Positions 27,991 through 35,043 of a stretch of 35,043 nucleotides of DNA are shown piece after piece. Both the position numbers and the translations under genes were made by a program. The first letter of the stretch is position 1; each line of letters starts with the position of its first letter. Under the pieces are notes generated by a model that was not told where the DNA came from, searched no databases, and was given only the letters and a program-made list of their open reading frames with translations. The stretch comes from Spirochaetales bacterium (GTDB lineage Bacteria; Spirochaetota; Spirochaetia; Treponematales; UBA12059), in contig JAFGNN010000043.1 in the NCBI GenBank assembly GCA_016926955.1, positions 1 to 35,043 of the forward strand. Reading direction: 5' to 3'.

Positions 27991-29759
27991 CGGTCGAGGA
28001 AGCGACCCCGACGAGCAGGGGCGGCAAGCCCGCGGTGCTCGCCCTGCTCTCCGACCTGATGGACGGTTCGGGCCTGGGCCGCGCCGGATTCGCCGCGCTG
28101 CTCGCCCTGGCCGTCTCCGCCTGGGCGGTGTTCCGCCTTCTCCCCGACGCCTGGCTCGCGGCCTGGAGCGGCGAGCGCGGCGCCTCCTTCATCGGTCCCC
28201 TCCTTTCGCCCCTGCTCGGGAGCGCGGGCGCGAACCTGCTCGCGTACGCCGGGCTCTCCGCGCTCCTCCTCGTCGTCGACGCGGGGCTGTCGATAGCCTG
28301 GATGCTCCTCATGACCGCCCTCGCGACGCGGACGCACGAGCGCATGCTCTCCGCGCTGCTCGCCGCGCCGACGCGCTTCTTCGACTCGACGCCCTCGGGG
28401 CGCGTCGTCAACCGCTTCTCGATCGACCTGGGCGAGGTCGACTCGACGCTCGGCTCCGCGGGCATCCTCTTCCTGCGCGGCGCGCTCGAGATCTCGCTCT
28501 CGATCGTGTTCTGCCTGCTCCTCGTGCCCTCCACGGTCCTGGTGTTCCCGCCGGTGGTCGCGCTCTTCCTCCTCCTCAACCGGGTGAACCTGCCCCTGAG
28601 CCGGGCACAGCGCAAGTACGGCTCGGTGCAGACCGGCAAGGCGCTCTCGCTCGTCAAGGAAGGAGCCGCCGGCGCGGAGACCGTCGCGGCGCACGGGCGG
28701 GGCGCCTGGTTCGAACGGCTCCTCAGGGAGCGGCTCGCGGCGCACAACGCGGTGGAGCTCGCGCGCATGGCCACGCGCACCTGGTACGGCGTCCGCGCCG
28801 AGACCCTGCCCGCACTGATGCTGGCCGCCGTGGCCGCGCTCGCCTTCCTCTCGCGCTCGGGCGGCGGCGCCTCGGTCGCGGCCGTGGCCGGCCTCGCCCT
28901 GGTCTACGCCCAGTCGGTGGGCTCGGGCTTCGGCCGCATCATGTGGAGCTGGAACCAGAGCGAGATCGCCTTCGTCGGCTACGAGCGCTGCAAGGAATAC
29001 GCGGGCCTCGAGCGCGAGGCGCCGCCGACGCGCGCCCCGGTCCTGTCCCACGAAACGCCCTGGCCCACGGAAGGCCGCGTCGAGTTCCGCGAGGCGACGC
29101 TCCGCTACGCCGGGGACCTGCCGCTCGTCCTCAAGGGCGTCTCGTTCGAGGTGCCGGGCGGCGCGCACGCGGGCCTCGTCGGTCGAACGGGCTGCGGGAA
29201 GAGCACGGCGCTCCAGGCCCTGCTCCGCTTCGTCGAGCTCGAGTCGGGCTCGATACTCGTGGACGGCGTCGACGTCGCCGCCATTCCCCTCGAACGGCTC
29301 AGGCGCGCCATCGCCTTCATCCCGCAGGATCCCGTGCTCTTTCCCGGCACGCTCCGCTCGAACCTCGACCCGCTCGGGCGCCGGGACGAAGCGGCGCTGG
29401 TCGCGGCGCTCGATCGCGCCGGGCTCTCCCGCCTCGCGAACCGCGAGGGCCTCGAATCGGAGGTGCAGGGCGCGGGCGAGAACCTGAGCCGCGGCGAGCG
29501 CCAGCTCGCGTGCCTGGCGCGGGCCTTCCTGCTCGAGGCGCGCATCATCCTGCTCGACGAGGCTACCGCGAGCGTCGACGTGGCGACCGATACGGCCATC
29601 CAGCGCGTGGTCGAGCGCGAATGCCGCGGCCTCACGGTGCTCACCGTGGCGCACCGGCTCGGAACGCTCAAGGCCGCCACCCGCGTCGTGGAGCTGGCCG
29701 CGGGCAGGGTCGTCGCCGTCCGGGACCGCGGGTGCGCGGGGAAGCTCGCGCCCGCCTGA
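27966..29759 (+). CDS. ABC exporter half-transporter resembling the second half of ABCC/MRP proteins
   Basis: 597 residues: an exporter membrane domain (about 30-340) and an ATPase domain (about 360-590). Walker A is 'GRTGCGKST' near 406, the Q-loop reads 'IAFIPQDPVLFPGTLRSNLDPLG', Walker B is 'IILLDEATASVD' with the catalytic Glu, and the H-loop is 'TVAHRL'. The signature is altered to 'LSRGERQ'. This is the ABCC NBD2 pattern ('PQDPvLF.GtlR.NLDP', non-consensus signature, intact Glu). With the upstream protein it would form one degenerate and one working ATP site. The ATG at 27966 lies inside the upstream gene; a GTG at 27987 would give a GTGA overlap and is the alternative start. No specific substrate can be inferred. 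The next gene is a separate hydrolase. Confidence 0.88.
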   Translation: MDAAGGRVTVEEATPTSRGGKPAVLALLSDLMDGSGLGRAGFAALLALAVSAWAVFRLLPDAWLAAWSGERGASFIGPLLSPLLGSAGANLLAYAGLSALLLVVDAGLSIAWMLLMTALATRTHERMLSALLAAPTRFFDSTPSGRVVNRFSIDLGEVDSTLGSAGILFLRGALEISLSIVFCLLLVPSTVLVFPPVVALFLLLNRVNLPLSRAQRKYGSVQTGKALSLVKEGAAGAETVAAHGRGAWFERLLRERLAAHNAVELARMATRTWYGVRAETLPALMLAAVAALAFLSRSGGGASVAAVAGLALVYAQSVGSGFGRIMWSWNQSEIAFVGYERCKEYAGLEREAPPTRAPVLSHETPWPTEGRVEFREATLRYAGDLPLVLKGVSFEVPGGAHAGLVGRTGCGKSTALQALLRFVELESGSILVDGVDVAAIPLERLRRAIAFIPQDPVLFPGTLRSNLDPLGRRDEAALVAALDRAGLSRLANREGLESEVQGAGENLSRGERQLACLARAFLLEARIILLDEATASVDVATDTAIQRVVERECRGLTVLTVAHRLGTLKAATRVVELAAGRVVAVRDRGCAGKLAPA

Positions 29760-29823
29760 AGCGGCGGCCGCTTTCCGGAGCCGGCGCTGGCATCCGGCGG
29801 CGTTTCGTGCGAAGATCGGGCGC

Positions 29824-30888
29824 ATGATGCGTAAAGCGGGCGGGAAGGGCGGACGGAAGGCTTTGTGGATAGCGCTCGTCGCGGCGGGAACGCTGGCGGC
29901 GCTCGCGCTCGGCGCGCTTACGGTGACGCGGCACGGCCTCGTGCCGCCGGGCACGGGCTTCATGATCCGCGCCCGCGCCGCGCTGTCCGCCCTCGAGCCC
30001 GTGCCCTACGAGGCCGCGGCGCGGCGCGCTGCTGGCGAGGCCGACCTCGACATCGTGGCTAGTCCGCCGCGCGATCCCGTATCCGTCCGCGAGCTCTCCG
30101 TCGAGGGGCCGGGAGGCGCGCTGCCCGTGCGCCTCTACCGCGCCGAAAGCGCGCCGGAAGGCCCCGTTCCCGTCCTCCTCTTCATGCACGGCGGCGGCTG
30201 GGTCCAGGGGAGCGTCGGAACCTACGACGCGCTCTGCCGCTGGCTCGCCGTGGAATCCGGCGCCGTGGTCGCCAGCCTCGAGTATCGCCTCGCGCCCGAG
30301 CACCCGTATCCCGCCGCCGTCGAGGACGCGCTCGCCGCCTATCGCTGGCTGCTCTCGGGCGGCGCGGGAACGGACGCTGACCCCGCTCGCGTCTTCGTCA
30401 CGGGCGATTCGGCCGGCGGCAACCTCGCCGCCGTGCTCTGCCTGGCCGCCCGCGAGACGGGCCTGCCGCAGCCCGCGGGCCAGATACTGCTCTATCCGGC
30501 CACGGATCTTTCACGCACCGATACCGAGTCCCGCGCGAAGTACGGCTCAGGCTACCTGCTCGACGCCGAGGCCATGGACTGGTTCATGGACCAGTACGTG
30601 CCCGACCGGGCCGGGCGCGCCGACTGGCGCGTCTCGCCCCTGCTCGCGCCGTCCCACGCGGACCTCGCTCCTGCCTTGGTGTACACCGCCGAGTACGACG
30701 CGCTCCGAGACGAGGGCGAAGCCTACGCCGCCGCGCTCGCCGCCGACGGCACTCCGGTCGTCTTGCGGCGCATGAAAGGCCAGGTCCACGGCTTCGCGTC
30801 CACCAACCGATTTTCCCTGGCCGCCTACCGCGTCTACCGCGAGGTCGGCGATTTCGTGCGGGAGGGAACGCTGCCGGCTGACCGGTAG
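29824..30888 (+). CDS. Membrane-anchored alpha/beta hydrolase (HSL-type esterase family)
   Basis: 354 residues. An N-terminal helix (about 13-34) after a Lys/Arg-rich start suggests a membrane anchor or uncleaved signal. The hydrolase domain shows the hormone-sensitive-lipase-type oxyanion motif HGGG (122-125), the nucleophile Ser196 in GDSAGGN, Asp292 in 'YTAEYDALRDEG' and His322 in 'GQVHGFAS', all with normal spacing. The family cleaves short- or medium-chain carboxyl esters; the substrate here is unknown. The ATG pair at 29824/29827 has no Shine-Dalgarno. It lies 64 bases after the ABC pair on the same strand and may be co-transcribed. An eight-base inverted repeat spans its stop codon. 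Confidence 0.9.
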   Translation: MMRKAGGKGGRKALWIALVAAGTLAALALGALTVTRHGLVPPGTGFMIRARAALSALEPVPYEAAARRAAGEADLDIVASPPRDPVSVRELSVEGPGGALPVRLYRAESAPEGPVPVLLFMHGGGWVQGSVGTYDALCRWLAVESGAVVASLEYRLAPEHPYPAAVEDALAAYRWLLSGGAGTDADPARVFVTGDSAGGNLAAVLCLAARETGLPQPAGQILLYPATDLSRTDTESRAKYGSGYLLDAEAMDWFMDQYVPDRAGRADWRVSPLLAPSHADLAPALVYTAEYDALRDEGEAYAAALAADGTPVVLRRMKGQVHGFASTNRFSLAAYRVYREVGDFVREGTLPADR

Positions 30889-30926
30889 GAACCGCGCCGA
30901 GGGGGCTTGAAACCTCCGTCCTACCG
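30883..30926 (+). other. Stem-loop spanning the hydrolase stop codon
   Basis: CGGTAGGA (30883-30890, containing the TAG stop) pairs perfectly with TCCTACCG (30919-30926), with an inner GAGG/CCTC pairing. No T-tract follows; the tRNA -35 box begins two bases later. Confidence 0.45.
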
Positions 30927-30927
30927 C

Positions 30928-30956
30928 TTGACACTTTCGCCTCGTTCCGGTAATTT
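30928..30956 (+). promoter_or_regulatory. Strong promoter of the tRNA pair
   Basis: TTGACA (30928-30933) and TAATTT (30951-30956) are separated by 17 bases. The predicted transcript start near 30963 is about 12 bases before the first tRNA. Confidence 0.8.
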
Positions 30957-30974
30957 CTCCCTCGTTCCGAGCGC

Positions 30975-31045
30975 TCCCCGGTTGTGTAATGGTAGCACGG
31001 CAGACTCTGGATCTGCTTGTGGGGGTTCAAATCCTCCCTGGGGAA
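30975..31045 (+). tRNA. tRNA-Gln (anticodon CUG)
   Basis: Cloverleaf read by hand: acceptor TCCCCGG with CTGGGGA (one G-U), D-stem GTGT/GCAC with AATGGTA loop, anticodon stem GCAGA/TCTGC with loop CTCTGGA (anticodon CTG), T-stem GGGGG/CCTCC with loop TTCAAAT. The discriminator is A and no CCA is encoded. It is 35 bases upstream of tRNA-Glu and shares its promoter. Confidence 0.93.
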
Positions 31046-31080
31046 TACCGGCGCCGACCCAACCCGGCGCGCAAACAGAC

Positions 31081-31152
31081 GGCCCCTTCGTCTATCGGTT
31101 AGGACACAAGATTCTCAATCTTGGAAGAGGAGTTCGACTCTCCTAGGGGCTA
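31081..31152 (+). tRNA. tRNA-Glu (anticodon CUC)
   Basis: Acceptor GGCCCCT with AGGGGCT (first pair G-U), D-stem GTCT/GGAC, anticodon stem CAAGA/TCTTG with loop TTCTCAA (anticodon CTC), T-stem AGGAG/CTCCT with loop TTCGACT. The discriminator is A and no CCA is encoded. Its 3' half (31129-31150) is perfectly repeated in inverted orientation at 31206-31227, and part of it again at 31347-31365 and 31421-31434. Confidence 0.93.
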
Positions 31153-31227
31153 ACAACAAAATCCAAAGACCGGCCGAAAGGCCGGTCTTTGCTTTCCAGG
31201 CAGGCGCCCCTAGGAGAGTCGAACTCC
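31129..31227. repeat. Palindrome 1: inverted tRNA-Glu 3' ends around the terminator
   Basis: Bases 31129-31150 (T-arm and acceptor of tRNA-Glu) are repeated as an exact 22-base reverse complement at 31206-31227. Both arms share the centre of the terminator hairpin (about 31178). The 14-15 bases between arms and hairpin on each side are not complementary. Confidence 0.9.
31165..31190 (+). terminator. Intrinsic terminator of the tRNA pair
   Basis: AAAGACCGGCC (31165-31175) pairs perfectly with GGCCGGTCTTT (31180-31190) around a GAAA tetraloop, 12 bases after tRNA-Glu. The stem is symmetric with A-runs and T-runs, so it could work from both strands. It is the centre of a larger palindrome. Confidence 0.85.
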
Positions 31228-31237
31228 GGAGCGCCGA

Positions 31238-31335
31238 CCCCCGAAGCGCGATTCGATGAGCGCTTCGGGGGACCGGGCGCCAAGGATGGCGCCCGGAGGC
31301 GCGGAGGCGGCCTGAAGCGAGCCGCGTGATGCGGC
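31238..31335. other. Cluster of three hairpins between the two palindromes
   Basis: CCCCCGAAGCGC (31238-31249) pairs with GCGCTTCGGGGG (31260-31271); CCGGGCGCC (31273-31281) pairs with GGCGCCCGG (31288-31296); GCCGC (31321-31325) pairs with GCGGC (31331-31335). All are perfect. No open frame, ribosome-binding site or promoter is convincing here. The 31153-31514 stretch holds no protein gene. Confidence 0.65.
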
Positions 31336-31346
31336 GAGCTGAAGGC

Positions 31347-31434
31347 TCGACTCTCCTAGGGGCTATTAACCAAAAACAAAAGACCGGCCGCAAGACCGGT
31401 CTTTTGTTTTCCCTGACTGTGCCCCTAGGAGAGT
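31347..31434. repeat. Palindrome 2: second, degenerate copy of the tRNA-tail/terminator palindrome
   Basis: TCGACTCTCCTAGGGGCTA (31347-31365) repeats the tRNA-Glu 3' end. Fourteen bases of it (31350-31363) are mirrored as GCCCCTAGGAGAGT at 31421-31434. Inside is a 15-base perfect stem (31373-31387 with 31396-31410) whose GACCGG core matches the first terminator. All elements share a centre near 31392, 214 bases from that of palindrome 1. In minus orientation the stem can end the oxidoreductase transcript. Confidence 0.9.
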
Positions 31435-31514
31435 GCGCCTCCGGCGCTTTCGGCGCGGAAATGATTTTAGTGCGCGGCCTTGCCGCGCGTCCTCATCGAA
31501 CCGCGGAGCCGCCG

Positions 31515-33104
31515 TCAGCGCTTCATGCACTGCTTCGCCGCGATCCTTCCCGTCATGATGGCCGTGGGGCCGCCTGCGGGGCTGTACACCCACTTGCCGG
31601 CGGCGTACACGTCGGGCAGCGCCGTCTTCACCGAATCGGCCATGCGGAACATGCTCGTCGTCACCGGGACTTCCTCCTCGAAGGACCAGCCGACGATGGA
31701 GCCTTCCGAGCTTCCCACACGCTCGCGGATCGACGAGGGCGAGGCGGAGAAGCTGAAAAGGACCTTGTCCGCGAGGCCTGGGTAGAGGCTCGCCGAGATC
31801 GTCTCGATGAAAGCCTTCTCGACGTGGCGCTTGAAATCGTCGTGCCAGCCCTCCGCGCGGATCCGCTCGCTCAGGGCGTAGTCGAACAGGGCGCTGATGA
31901 TGAGCCCGGTCTTGCCCGCGGGCGCCGCGTCGCTGTCGCGCAGGACGGGGATGGAGAGCTCGAAGGTGTTGTAGCGGCAGAAGCGGCCGAGCCATTCCAG
32001 CACCTCGTCCTTCGGCAGCGCGCCGGTACGGGCGAGCAGAGCCTTGAGCTCGTCGGTGTGGATCGCGCCGAGCCCGCGCCGGTCCGGCGTGTAGAAGACG
32101 TGGGCGCCCGCGTGGCCGCCGAAGAATTCGGGCGGCAGGTCGGCGGCCAGGAAGACCGAGAAGACCGATTCGGCGCCGTGGCGCTTCAGCACCGCTTCCT
32201 TCGTCCGCGCGAACGCGGCCTGTTCCTTCGGCGCAAGCCCAGCGTCGGCGCTCAGCGAATACAGGGTCTTGAGGTCGCCGGTCCAGATGAGCTTCCCGTA
32301 GCGGTAGGAATTTCCGGCGGCGTCGGTGAGGGTCTTCGCGGCGGGGTCGACGGCCACGATCTCGGCATCGAGGCGCAGCTCGCCGCCGCGCCGCGTTATC
32401 GCGTTCGCCATGGCCTCGATGAAGGCGCCGACGCCGCCCTTCGGATAGACGTAGTCGCCGTAGAGCGCGAAGTAGCTCAGGGCGAAGAACACGGGCGTCT
32501 TCCGGAAGAAATGCTGGCCGATGATGTCCTTGAGCGGGCGGTTGGCGGAGAGTTCGTCGAGTCGCTCCTCGAAGGGCGTGTCCATCTTCGAGATGCGGTA
32601 CATGGTCCGCATGAACTTGAACATCCACGCGGCCATGGCGGGGACGAGGACGAGGATGTTCTTCTTCTTCCGGGTGAAGAGGGGACTGTCGACGCCGTAG
32701 AGCGTCTTCATGTCGCCGATGACCGCGCGGATGGCGTCGACGATCCGGTCGACCTCGGCGCCGCTCTCCGGGTAGAGCCCTTTCAGGAGCTCCGCGTAGG
32801 CGTCGAGGCTCCGTTCCCCTTCGATCCTGAGCATGCGGTCCTCGACGCCCAGCGTGATGGGGTTGGGGAGCATCTCGACCTCGAGCGCGAATTCCTTGAG
32901 GAGGGGCTTCACGAGGCCGGCGTTGACCAGGGCCCGCGCGCCGCCCTCGAAGCGGAAGCCGTCGCGGACGAAGGAATTCATGAGCCCGCCGCACGCCTCG
33001 TTCTTCTCGAGGAGAAGCACGTCCTTCCCCTTGTTCGCCAGGCTCAGGGCCGCGGTGAGTCCCGCGATGCCGCCGCCGACCACGATGACGTCCTTGCTCG
33101 TCAC
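31515..33104 (-). CDS. FAD-dependent oxidoreductase of the phytoene desaturase/retinol saturase type
   Basis: 529 residues from a GTG at 33104, which overlaps the SDR stop (GTGA); a frame from 33149 exists but would lie inside the SDR gene. The N-terminus is a dinucleotide-binding fold: 'VIVVGGGIAGLTAALSLANKGKDVLLLEKNEACGG'. A substrate-binding middle part with hydrophobic patches follows, and the C-terminus has the FAD-family closing motif 'LPDVYAAGKWVYSPAGGPTAIMTGRIAAKQC'. This set (NAD(P)/FAD-dependent, CrtI/CrtN, carotenoid isomerase and retinol saturase relatives) acts on polyisoprenoid or lipid double bonds. No other carotenoid genes are here, so the substrate is open. It is translated after an SDR, suggesting two steps of one lipid conversion. 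Confidence 0.85.
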   Translation of the reverse strand: MTSKDVIVVGGGIAGLTAALSLANKGKDVLLLEKNEACGGLMNSFVRDGFRFEGGARALVNAGLVKPLLKEFALEVEMLPNPITLGVEDRMLRIEGERSLDAYAELLKGLYPESGAEVDRIVDAIRAVIGDMKTLYGVDSPLFTRKKKNILVLVPAMAAWMFKFMRTMYRISKMDTPFEERLDELSANRPLKDIIGQHFFRKTPVFFALSYFALYGDYVYPKGGVGAFIEAMANAITRRGGELRLDAEIVAVDPAAKTLTDAAGNSYRYGKLIWTGDLKTLYSLSADAGLAPKEQAAFARTKEAVLKRHGAESVFSVFLAADLPPEFFGGHAGAHVFYTPDRRGLGAIHTDELKALLARTGALPKDEVLEWLGRFCRYNTFELSIPVLRDSDAAPAGKTGLIISALFDYALSERIRAEGWHDDFKRHVEKAFIETISASLYPGLADKVLFSFSASPSSIRERVGSSEGSIVGWSFEEEVPVTTSMFRMADSVKTALPDVYAAGKWVYSPAGGPTAIMTGRIAAKQCMKR

Positions 33105-34063
33105 AGCGCCACCCCTTTTTCGCCGAGGATTTCGAGGGTCCGTTTCCACAGGGCTTCCGCCGCCTCGCCGTCGCGGGCGGGCGGCGCGAGCTCCTCTTCG
33201 GTAGTCAGGTGGAAGAAGGCGTCGCTCTTCCCCGCCATCTCGTCCGACGCGCCGAGCCAGTAGAGCGCCTCGGCCGACACTTCAGGCGAGTCCGAATTCC
33301 GGTCGATGACGTTCCGCTTGTACCACTTGTAGAAGCGGCCGTTGTCCCTGCCGGTCTCCGTCCGCACCATGCCCGGGTGCATCGAGATGATGGTCGCGCC
33401 CGATGATGCGAGCTCCTTCGCGAACACGTGCATCGAGAGGAGCTGCGCGAGCTTCCCGGCCCCGTAGGCCTTGAGGCCCGAGTAGCGCCTGCGCTCAAAC
33501 TGCAGGTCGTCGAGGCGGAGGCCCCAGACCGCGAAGCGGTAGCCCTCCGAGCCGACCAGGATGATCCTGGCCTTCCCCTCGCGCTTGAGTTTCGGCAGGA
33601 GGAGCTTCGTGATGACGAAGGGTGCCAGGTGGTGCACCGCGAAATTCGTCTCGAAGCCGTCGGGCGTCTCGGTCCGCGCGTCCAGATGGAGCCCGGCGTT
33701 GTGGATGAGGACGTCGATGGGGCGGTCGAGCGCCGTCAGGGCGCGTCCCGCCTTCTGCATGTCCTCCAGGACCGAGAGGTCGGCGATGACTTCTTCGACC
33801 TCGGCGCCGAACTCGGCGGCCAGCTCCGCGCGCACGCGGCGGGACTTCTCCGGATTCCGGTTGACGAGGATGAGGCGCGCGCCCATGGACGCGTACTTCC
33901 GCGCCGTCCGGTAGCCGACCCCGGAGGTGGTGCCGGTGATCACGACCAGCTTTTCGCGGAAAGGCCCGTCGCACCGCTTCGGCGCGGCCTTCATGTTCTT
34001 CAGCATGGCGAACACGTTCGACCATTCGTACTGCGGCCAATAGCGGCGGATAGCGGGGTTCAT
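33101..34063 (-). CDS. Short-chain dehydrogenase/reductase (retinol dehydrogenase-like)
   Basis: 320 residues from the ATG at 34063, with GGAG nine bases upstream; a longer frame from 34447 has no support. The cofactor motif is TGTTSGVG (43-50); 'HNAG' (121-124) is the NAG motif; the catalytic set is Ser172 with Tyr200 and Lys204 (YGAGK). Arg/Asn after strand 2 ('LILVNRN') suggests NADP(H). About 37 extra residues precede the Rossmann fold ('MNPAIRRYWPQYEWSNVFAM'), and the C-terminal extension fits retinol dehydrogenase/WWOX-like SDRs. It should reduce or oxidise a hydrophobic alcohol or ketone. The stop overlaps the GTG of the FAD oxidoreductase. A TTGCCC-N17-TACAAT promoter lies 32 bases upstream. 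Confidence 0.9.
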   Translation of the reverse strand: MNPAIRRYWPQYEWSNVFAMLKNMKAAPKRCDGPFREKLVVITGTTSGVGYRTARKYASMGARLILVNRNPEKSRRVRAELAAEFGAEVEEVIADLSVLEDMQKAGRALTALDRPIDVLIHNAGLHLDARTETPDGFETNFAVHHLAPFVITKLLLPKLKREGKARIILVGSEGYRFAVWGLRLDDLQFERRRYSGLKAYGAGKLAQLLSMHVFAKELASSGATIISMHPGMVRTETGRDNGRFYKWYKRNVIDRNSDSPEVSAEALYWLGASDEMAGKSDAFFHLTTEEELAPPARDGEAAEALWKRTLEILGEKGVAL

Positions 34064-34094
34064 GCCACGGAGCTCCTTGGGCTGTCGCCGGCTG

Positions 34095-34123
34095 ATTGTA
34101 GTCGCTCGACCGGCTCCGGGCAA
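34095..34123 (-). promoter_or_regulatory. Promoter of the SDR/oxidoreductase pair
   Basis: On the minus strand TTGCCC (34123-34118) and TACAAT (34100-34095) are separated by 17 bases. The predicted transcript start is about 25 bases before the SDR ATG. Confidence 0.65.
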
Positions 34124-34177
34124 GAAAAAGGGGAACCGGGCGCCGGCGGGACCGGGCGCCCCGCGCGCGCGGGGACG

Positions 34178-34206
34178 TTGCCTTCCGCCCCGAAGCATGC
34201 TCCAAT
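34178..34206 (+). promoter_or_regulatory. Weak promoter candidate before the small membrane protein
   Basis: TTGCCT (34178-34183) and TCCAAT (34201-34206) are 17 bases apart; the -10 ends eight bases before the ATG at 34215. No Shine-Dalgarno is present. The match is loose, so this is tentative. Confidence 0.3.
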
Positions 34207-34214
34207 GGTCCACC

Positions 34215-34817
34215 ATGAAGACCAAGCACGTGCTGGCGCTCTTCCTCGCCCTCATGGCGGCCCTCGTCGCCTTCGCCCTGTGTTTCCGGGAGACCTTTCT
34301 CGCGCTGCTCGACCGCCCCGAACTGCGCGGCCACGCCCGCTTCGTCCACATCGCGGCGACCACGCTCTTCTTCGCCAACGCCGCGCTGGGCATGGTCTGG
34401 GAGGCCCGGAGCCTCGCGTCGGGCCGGAAGGAGACCATCCTCCACACCTACGACACCGTCGCCTGGTTGGACGCGCGCTTTTCGTCGCCCCTCATCGTGC
34501 TCTCGCTCGTTTCCGGGCTCATGCTCGCCGTCGCCTCGGGCGACCTGTGGCACATCGGCTGGCTTTCGAACGCCTTCGTCCTCTTCCTGCTTTCGGGCGT
34601 CATCTGGGTGGCGAGCGACATCCCGACCCAGGGCAAGGTCCGGCGCCTGACGGCGGCCGCGCGGGAAAGCGATGACGAAGCGCTCCCCGCTGAGCTTTTC
34701 CACATCCTCAAGCTACGCCTGTGGATCGGCCTCGCGGGCGTCCTCCCCCTCGTAGCCGTCCTCGTCCTCATGGTCTACCGGCCCGACATCAGAGCCGTCG
34801 CCGCCTGGTTCCGCTGA
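34215..34817 (+). CDS. Small integral membrane protein, possibly DUF2269-like
   Basis: 200 residues with about four membrane helices (roughly 6-24, 43-62, 92-112, 120-140 and a last one at 170-190). 'RFVHIAATTLFFANAALGMVWEARSLASGRKETI' has a His in a helix start followed by a long second helix, as in DUF2269 and related small helical membrane proteins; I am not certain of the family. The central loop 'VASDIPTQGKVRRLTAAARESDDEALP' is charged. No enzymatic motif is seen. The ATG at 34215 is preferred over an upstream frame start at 34062, which would cover the SDR promoter. It is divergent from the SDR pair. The function is unknown. Confidence 0.65.
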   Translation: MKTKHVLALFLALMAALVAFALCFRETFLALLDRPELRGHARFVHIAATTLFFANAALGMVWEARSLASGRKETILHTYDTVAWLDARFSSPLIVLSLVSGLMLAVASGDLWHIGWLSNAFVLFLLSGVIWVASDIPTQGKVRRLTAAARESDDEALPAELFHILKLRLWIGLAGVLPLVAVLVLMVYRPDIRAVAAWFR

Positions 34818-34820
34818 CCC

Positions 34821-35034
34821 GGCGTAGCGCCGCGCGGAAGCCTGCAGCGCGGCGGCCTGCGAGGCAACGCAATCGCCCAGAACCGCGCCCCTCGTCCTCC
34901 ATGCGCCCGGCGTGCTGGCGCAAACCCGGCACCGCCATCGCCCCCAGCCACGCGGCCGGCGTGATAGCGCAAACCCGCCGAAGCGCCTCGCGGAGCTCCG
35001 CAGGACGGCGGCCAACCAGGCAACGCAATCGCCC
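34821..35034. repeat. Degenerate G+C-rich repeat tract at the right edge
   Basis: GGCGGCC-N4-AGGCAACGCAATCGCCC occurs at 34851-34878 and 35007-35034, 156 bases apart. A second motif, CCGGCGTGnTnGCGCAAACCC, occurs at 34907-34927 and 34956-34976, 49 bases apart. Several frames stay open on the minus strand and would encode imperfect 'GRLRCL.GRR' repeats, but no start signal or codon pattern supports a gene. The tract continues beyond the window. Confidence 0.65.
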
Positions 35035-35043
35035 CGGCACGCG

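Follow-up and report, generated by a model that had tools for sequence, protein, structure and literature searches.

The 3′ part of a tRNA-Glu gene recurs in direct and inverted orientation around a folded core in the window analyzed here, a 35,043-nt stretch of DNA from a Spirochaetales bacterium. We propose that this arrangement is probably an element of the tRNA-linked repeat (TLR) type, that is, a short piece of non-coding DNA inserted at the T-loop of a tRNA or tmRNA gene, always on the strand of that gene and just behind its terminator. A sequence-only reading of the window had described two concentric palindromes made from the tRNA-Glu tail and its terminator, and both hold exactly (22/22 bases around position 31178 and 14/14 around 31392). 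That reading had passed over an exact 19-nt copy of the tail at 31347–31365, and it had not recognized that the palindromes form only the borders, the conserved and transferable part being the folded core of ~105–119 nt between them.

The locus reads, in order, as tail, terminator, inverted tail, folded core, tail copy, terminator and inverted tail (Table 1), the repeated tail being the part of tRNA-Glu from C56 in the T-loop to base 73. The first inverted pair (31129–31150 and 31206–31227) surrounds the terminator stem at 31164–31191, and the second (31350–31363 and 31421–31434) the stem at 31373–31410; the two sets are direct repeats spaced 213–215 bases apart, and their terminators share 85% identity over a 39-nt repeat. 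By our own estimate a 22-nt match is expected by chance within a few hundred bases at ~1e-8, and the predicted RNA fold of 31081–31440 exceeds shuffled sequences in stability by 14 s.d. The covariance model R1, made from six cores with no tail included and with the structure of the first core alignment set by hand, matches the window core at 31244–31345 (E = 1.3e-4, 35.5 bits). A REP-like insert at 31435–31496 interrupts the second inverted tail and so limits it to 14 nt, the motif CGAACC GCGGAGCCGCCG continuing from 31497. This interrupted tail and the stub of a second core, which stops at the stop of a convergent oxidoreductase gene, therefore mark the locus as a former two-unit array. At gathering thresholds, Rfam returned nothing but tRNAs over 28000–35043, and a permissive Rfam search of eight loci yielded only sub-threshold noise.

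Table 1 Features of the locus behind tRNA-Glu in the window
Feature	Position	Strand	Basis or remark
tRNA-Glu (CTC), host gene	31081..31152	+	ARAGORN, Rfam
T-arm/acceptor 3′ strand, arm 1 of first palindrome	31129..31150	+	GGAGTTCGACTCTCCTAGGGGC
Terminator hairpin 1, perfect 12-bp stem	31164..31191	+	
Inverted tail (rcTail), exact reverse complement of 31129–31150	31206..31227	+	
Folded core (core A), ~119 nt: three-way part and second hairpin	31228..31346	+	R1 match, covariation, fold
Direct tail copy, 19/19 nt identical to tRNA 3′ end 31134–31152	31347..31365	+	
Terminator hairpin 2, 15-bp stem	31373..31410	+	
Second inverted tail, 14 nt, shortened by inserted element B	31421..31434	+	
Core B (element B), separate REP/MITE-like insert, GGAAATGATnnTAGTG and hairpin	31435..31496	+	Interrupts second inverted tail
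Stub of second, truncated core A (CGAACC GCGGAGCCGCCG)	31497..31514	+	Sequence compared with other core starts

Several other inserts were observed at or near such loci. Element B consists of GGAAATGATnnTAGTG and, next to it, a G+C hairpin, and repeatedly interrupts the tails and cores of TLR-like units; besides its one copy in the window, it occurs downstream of tRNAs at loci L025, L114 and L105 and inside core A at L004. Behind tRNA-Cys on contig C52 of the source genome (L022) it is flanked by the 7-nt acceptor strand only, in two units, and the terminator there is perfectly palindromic through both tails. A third insert type was seen in a tRNA-Pro array (L144, genome G244), where an extra hairpin in the acceptor part splits a tail copy. 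At locus L165 (G015:C1:210600-230000), two copies of a tRNA-Leu tail enclose a 6.9-kb interval with integrase, protease and capsid-like genes, which is a small prophage or satellite in tRNA-Leu that duplicated the 3′ part of the gene and displaced a pre-existing TLR-like unit downstream. An integron integrase is encoded on contig C27 of the source genome (L172, 8906–9850) and in 15 other Spirochaetia genomes. The source genome also holds a 50-nt repeat pair, 618 bases apart, near a contig end, and many of its contigs (C63, C64, C70, C77, C32 and C41) end 0–200 bases from a tRNA, probably because TLR-like arrays broke the short-read assembly.

The same layout stands behind 9–10 of the 44 tRNAs of the source genome, at Thr, Met (two), Ala, Pro, Glu and Leu (three), each copy carrying the tail of its own tRNA. 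When loci were scored by a 12-nt inverted T-loop within 300 nt downstream of the tRNA, an exact 12/12 match was found 49–59 nt after about nine tRNAs, the others mostly reaching no more than 9/12. A search of the source genome with the window locus gave a second match directly behind tRNA-Thr (contig C57, 10980–11111), and because of this match we regard the region between the palindromes as the key part. Named records with a matching motif belong to Treponema, Spirochaetaceae, Spirochaetales and Spirochaetia. R1 finds the core in 39 of 59 relatives, mostly at 3–15 copies per genome in carrier families, and in 72 of 393 Spirochaetota genomes from 34 genera, the latter count being a lower bound owing to strict filters. 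Although the model contains no tail, nearly all of its hits lie behind a tRNA or tmRNA, and the exceptions are mostly contig ends or cases in which ARAGORN missed the tRNA or tmRNA end. Placements cover 15 tRNA isotypes and tmRNA and invariably share the strand of the gene; relatives have zero, one or two cores downstream of tRNA-Glu, and in G244 a tRNA-Pro is followed by as many as five units in tandem. The recurrence of the inverted tail at other tRNA loci in the genome and its relatives excludes a one-off local rearrangement or scar, which the sequence-only reading had entertained. The phage and plasmid collections searched held no match to the element, and a search for an autonomous, gene-carrying version found none.

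We measured borders in 117 placements, counting tandem copies separately. The inverted tail was present in 116, the direct tail in 111 and both in 110. Unit borders fall at the T-loop, at about positions 54–56 of the tRNA: tail copies mostly start at positions 55–57 and are mostly 17–19 nt long, and the inverted tail has a tight inner edge, mostly at positions 52–54, and a spread outer edge with peaks at 64–66 and 69–72. In some Treponema-type copies both borders are shifted together to ~47–49 (positions 47–58, with the tail from 49). A unit consists of the tail (C56–73), a terminator or spacer, the inverted tail and the core, and arrays comprise one to five units closed by a final tail and, often, the native terminator. 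The host locus supplies the tails and inverted tails and in many cases the terminator, and the core is common to different tRNAs and genomes. The direct repeat often takes in the terminator or spacer: in 18 of 34 loci the segment after the tail is homologous on both sides (above the 99th percentile of mismatched pairs). Non-homologous terminators, seen at a good many loci, are more consistent with a carried cassette than with a target duplication.

Comparisons between close relatives bear on movement. In two congeneric species, the source genome (G000) and G001, 42 tRNA genes pair at 92–100% identity; an intact core is found only in the source genome at Thr and one Leu and only in G001 at Gly, although the tRNA genes concerned are identical. 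At Leu, the terminator of the element-free site is the one found behind the element, and the insertion was therefore placed between T55 and C56, displacing the original tail and terminator. At Gly, the block of tail, terminator and inverted tail is exactly duplicated on either side of the core, and at tRNA-Glu one whole unit is cleanly present or absent between G006 and G018. Cores are also similar across genes, as between tmRNA of G019 and Leu of G016 (identity 0.87) and between Leu and Met of G031 (0.89), and this similarity breaks off at the T-loop on both sides. Other core pairs are orthologous and old, and core identity across tRNAs within one genome is ~0.70; many copies are thus old, and movement appears to be infrequent. 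As judged from these aligned loci, whole units have been cleanly gained or lost, and the element evidently moves or has moved. The upstream copy leaves the tRNA and its terminator intact, so that insertion looks harmless. The sequence-only reading had suggested an element, mobile or self-propagating, that makes use of tRNA 3′ ends, and a comparison of its presence and absence among relatives; a layout that occurs at 15 isotypes and tmRNA, with units polymorphic between congeners, supports that suggestion.

The core has a strongly covarying fold, with 93.5% of cells paired and double changes at 26 of 27 pairs, compared with at most 42.3% in slid controls. G-U accounts for 1.5% of core pairs versus 7–8% in the acceptor and T stems of tRNAs at the same loci (p = 7e-21), and the ratio of G-U to A-C is 30:13 in the core versus 149:1 in the tRNA stems; the core alignment was fitted to the model, but the count for the closing stem formed by the two tails, which gives a G-U to A-C ratio of 10:9 with 81 of 104 stems perfect, was not. 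Since selection at the RNA level should tolerate G-U, its rarity leads us to read the fold as a DNA-level one, and the structure of the core seems to be kept or corrected as DNA rather than RNA.

These counts weigh against the idea that the locus serves the host as an RNA for regulation or processing, in which a structured 3′ trailer would govern maturation or termination through pairing of its inverted tail with the tail of the tRNA. A strong conserved fold that always lies on the strand of the tRNA would suit such a role, and a published account (PMC8144298) describes transcription of the RrA, RrB and RrF TLRs of E. coli and their binding to Hfq and CsrA. We nevertheless consider it improbable: the tolerance of G-U well above A-C characteristic of a structured regulatory RNA was not found, G-U being nearly as rare as A-C, unlike in tRNA stems of the same genomes; the core is situated past the terminator; and its presence is patchy between congeners with identical tRNAs. 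Template switching at a hairpin was also among the suggestions of the sequence-only reading; in a pure form, template switching or quasi-palindrome correction at terminator hairpins would need no dedicated element. Some loci are wholly palindromic through the terminator (for example, tRNA-Cys at L022), and correction of this type would maintain perfect inverted tails, but a core that is conserved and has a covarying fold of its own is found across 34 genera and, as in the window, the spacers separating tail from terminator are as a rule not inverted copies. As a full explanation it is refuted by the conserved core, and we give a pure form of it next to no credence; a contribution is possible, and such correction may still be what holds the tails identical.

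Enzyme-driven alternatives were weighed by co-occurrence. In an integron-like cassette system, the T-loop would serve as attI, the inverted tail, core and tail as a folded, attC-like site, and the tail and terminator as the cassette, which a tyrosine recombinase that works on single-stranded DNA would move. The anatomy of the arrays and a DNA-level fold with conserved unpaired GA and GGA bases match the attC principle, and 16 of the 25 Spirochaetia examined, the source genome included, have an integron integrase (TIGR02249) above cut-off. However, none reaches the cut-off in the closed carrier G034, which has 15 copies, or in carriers G015, G029 and G039, whereas non-carriers G024, G027, G055, G009 and G044 have one; non-carriers also commonly possess a second, IntI-like recombinase; no significant core lies beside integrase loci, where the one strong match is behind tRNA-Asp; and the specificity of tail and inverted tail for each new tRNA would be left unexplained, making this system unlikely. 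A SINE-like retroelement that entered the T-loop by target-primed reverse transcription, with tail and terminator as its target-site duplication, would account for a direct duplication of roughly 40–90 bp with a fixed left edge and for the universal target motif. It is very improbable given that carriers G000, G001, G010, G015 and G016 and the closed genomes G031, G034 and G058 have no RVT_1 protein and that the rarity of G-U speaks against selection at the RNA level. Reverse transcriptase, integron integrase and the IntI-like recombinase all fail co-occurrence as required mobilizers, and RAYT (Y1_Tnp) is rejected in the same role by its absence from the closed carriers G031, G176 and G244. 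Among these candidates (RVT_1, Y1_Tnp, integron integrase and IntI-like recombinase), no mobilizing enzyme was found.

For the TLR-type element that we favor, we envisage that the core would enter as folded single-stranded DNA and that its movement would create the direct duplication of tail and terminator. We invoke fold-back of a 3′ overhang, copied to the edge of the duplex, because the inner edge of the inverted tail is fixed and the outer edge variable; such a copy would yield an inverted tail ending at the T-loop. The sequence TTCRANTCC and its complement border the core on both sides, and this T-loop sequence, common to all tRNAs, would allow passage from tRNA to tRNA and could guide the core in and out. 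The enzyme may be ordinary replication or recombination machinery acting on T-loop homology.

TLRs, the closest known system, were described in 1978 (Egan & Landy), and a later account lists 22 units at ten loci in E. coli K-12, gives the 3′ end of a unit as the last 18–19 bp of the upstream gene, and assigns no known function to the class (PMC8144298). The spirochaete element shares with TLRs its same-strand downstream placement, 18–19 bp of tail identity and one to five units per locus; in both, units lie in tandem directly behind tRNA or rRNA genes (tRNA or tmRNA in spirochaetes). We found inverted tails in K-12 at tyrV (10 nt, GGGGAAGGAT), lysV (11 nt, GATTCGAACCT) and proK (12/14, two mismatches), a tail copy in all three units, and a duplicated terminator sequence behind proK and lysV; the available text of PMC8144298 makes no mention of the inverted tail, which may have been described earlier elsewhere. 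In 15 kb of K-12 tRNA and rRNA loci, R1 gave five matches, all to TLRs and all weak (E 0.013–0.3; 0.0026–0.3 when all R1 comparisons with E. coli TLRs are taken together), and a similar GA-flanked stem, CGAGCG..AGCGAG, is present in E. coli TLRs (alignment A4). The two differ in that spirochaete copies mostly start at C56 and E. coli copies at A58/A59, and in that the spirochaete core is longer, has an extra covarying hairpin and occurs behind 15 isotypes and tmRNA in 34 genera. The Rfam family RtT (RF00391), which partly covers TLRs and includes K-12 units, scored above its gathering cut-off in none of the 59 relatives, with a positive E. coli control. The spirochaete element is of the same kind as TLRs and has the same anatomy, but is not a member of RtT; the homology between the two sets of cores is weak, and their common descent is likely.

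With these data, TLRs become a large comparative family, with dozens of spirochaete genomes, mapped borders, and units present or absent at identical tRNA genes, which makes their nature testable with respect to movement, the polymerase or recombinase involved, and the form of the strand. Terminal inverted repeats acquire a new origin, the target gene rather than the element. More tentatively, TLRs might represent a class of enzyme-less mobile DNA that extends well beyond enterobacteria, in which folded cores pass through the T-loop and the host gene forms the terminal inverted repeats.

Other known systems share parts of this anatomy. Integron cassettes and their attC sites likewise form arrays in which a folded, imperfectly palindromic site delimits the units and structure exists at the DNA level, whereas the spirochaete element has no required IntI, is bordered by the tRNA T-loop, and consists of tRNA tail and terminator without a gene. 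REP/RAYT elements and MITEs are similarly small, non-coding, palindromic and dispersed, but the spirochaete element is bound to tRNAs, takes its flanks, inverted, from the target, and occurs in closed carriers that lack RAYT. Islands and satellites that integrate into tRNA genes also use and restore the 3′ part of the gene; the spirochaete element, by contrast, measures ~200 bp, is without an integrase, and combines an inverted with a direct copy of the tail.
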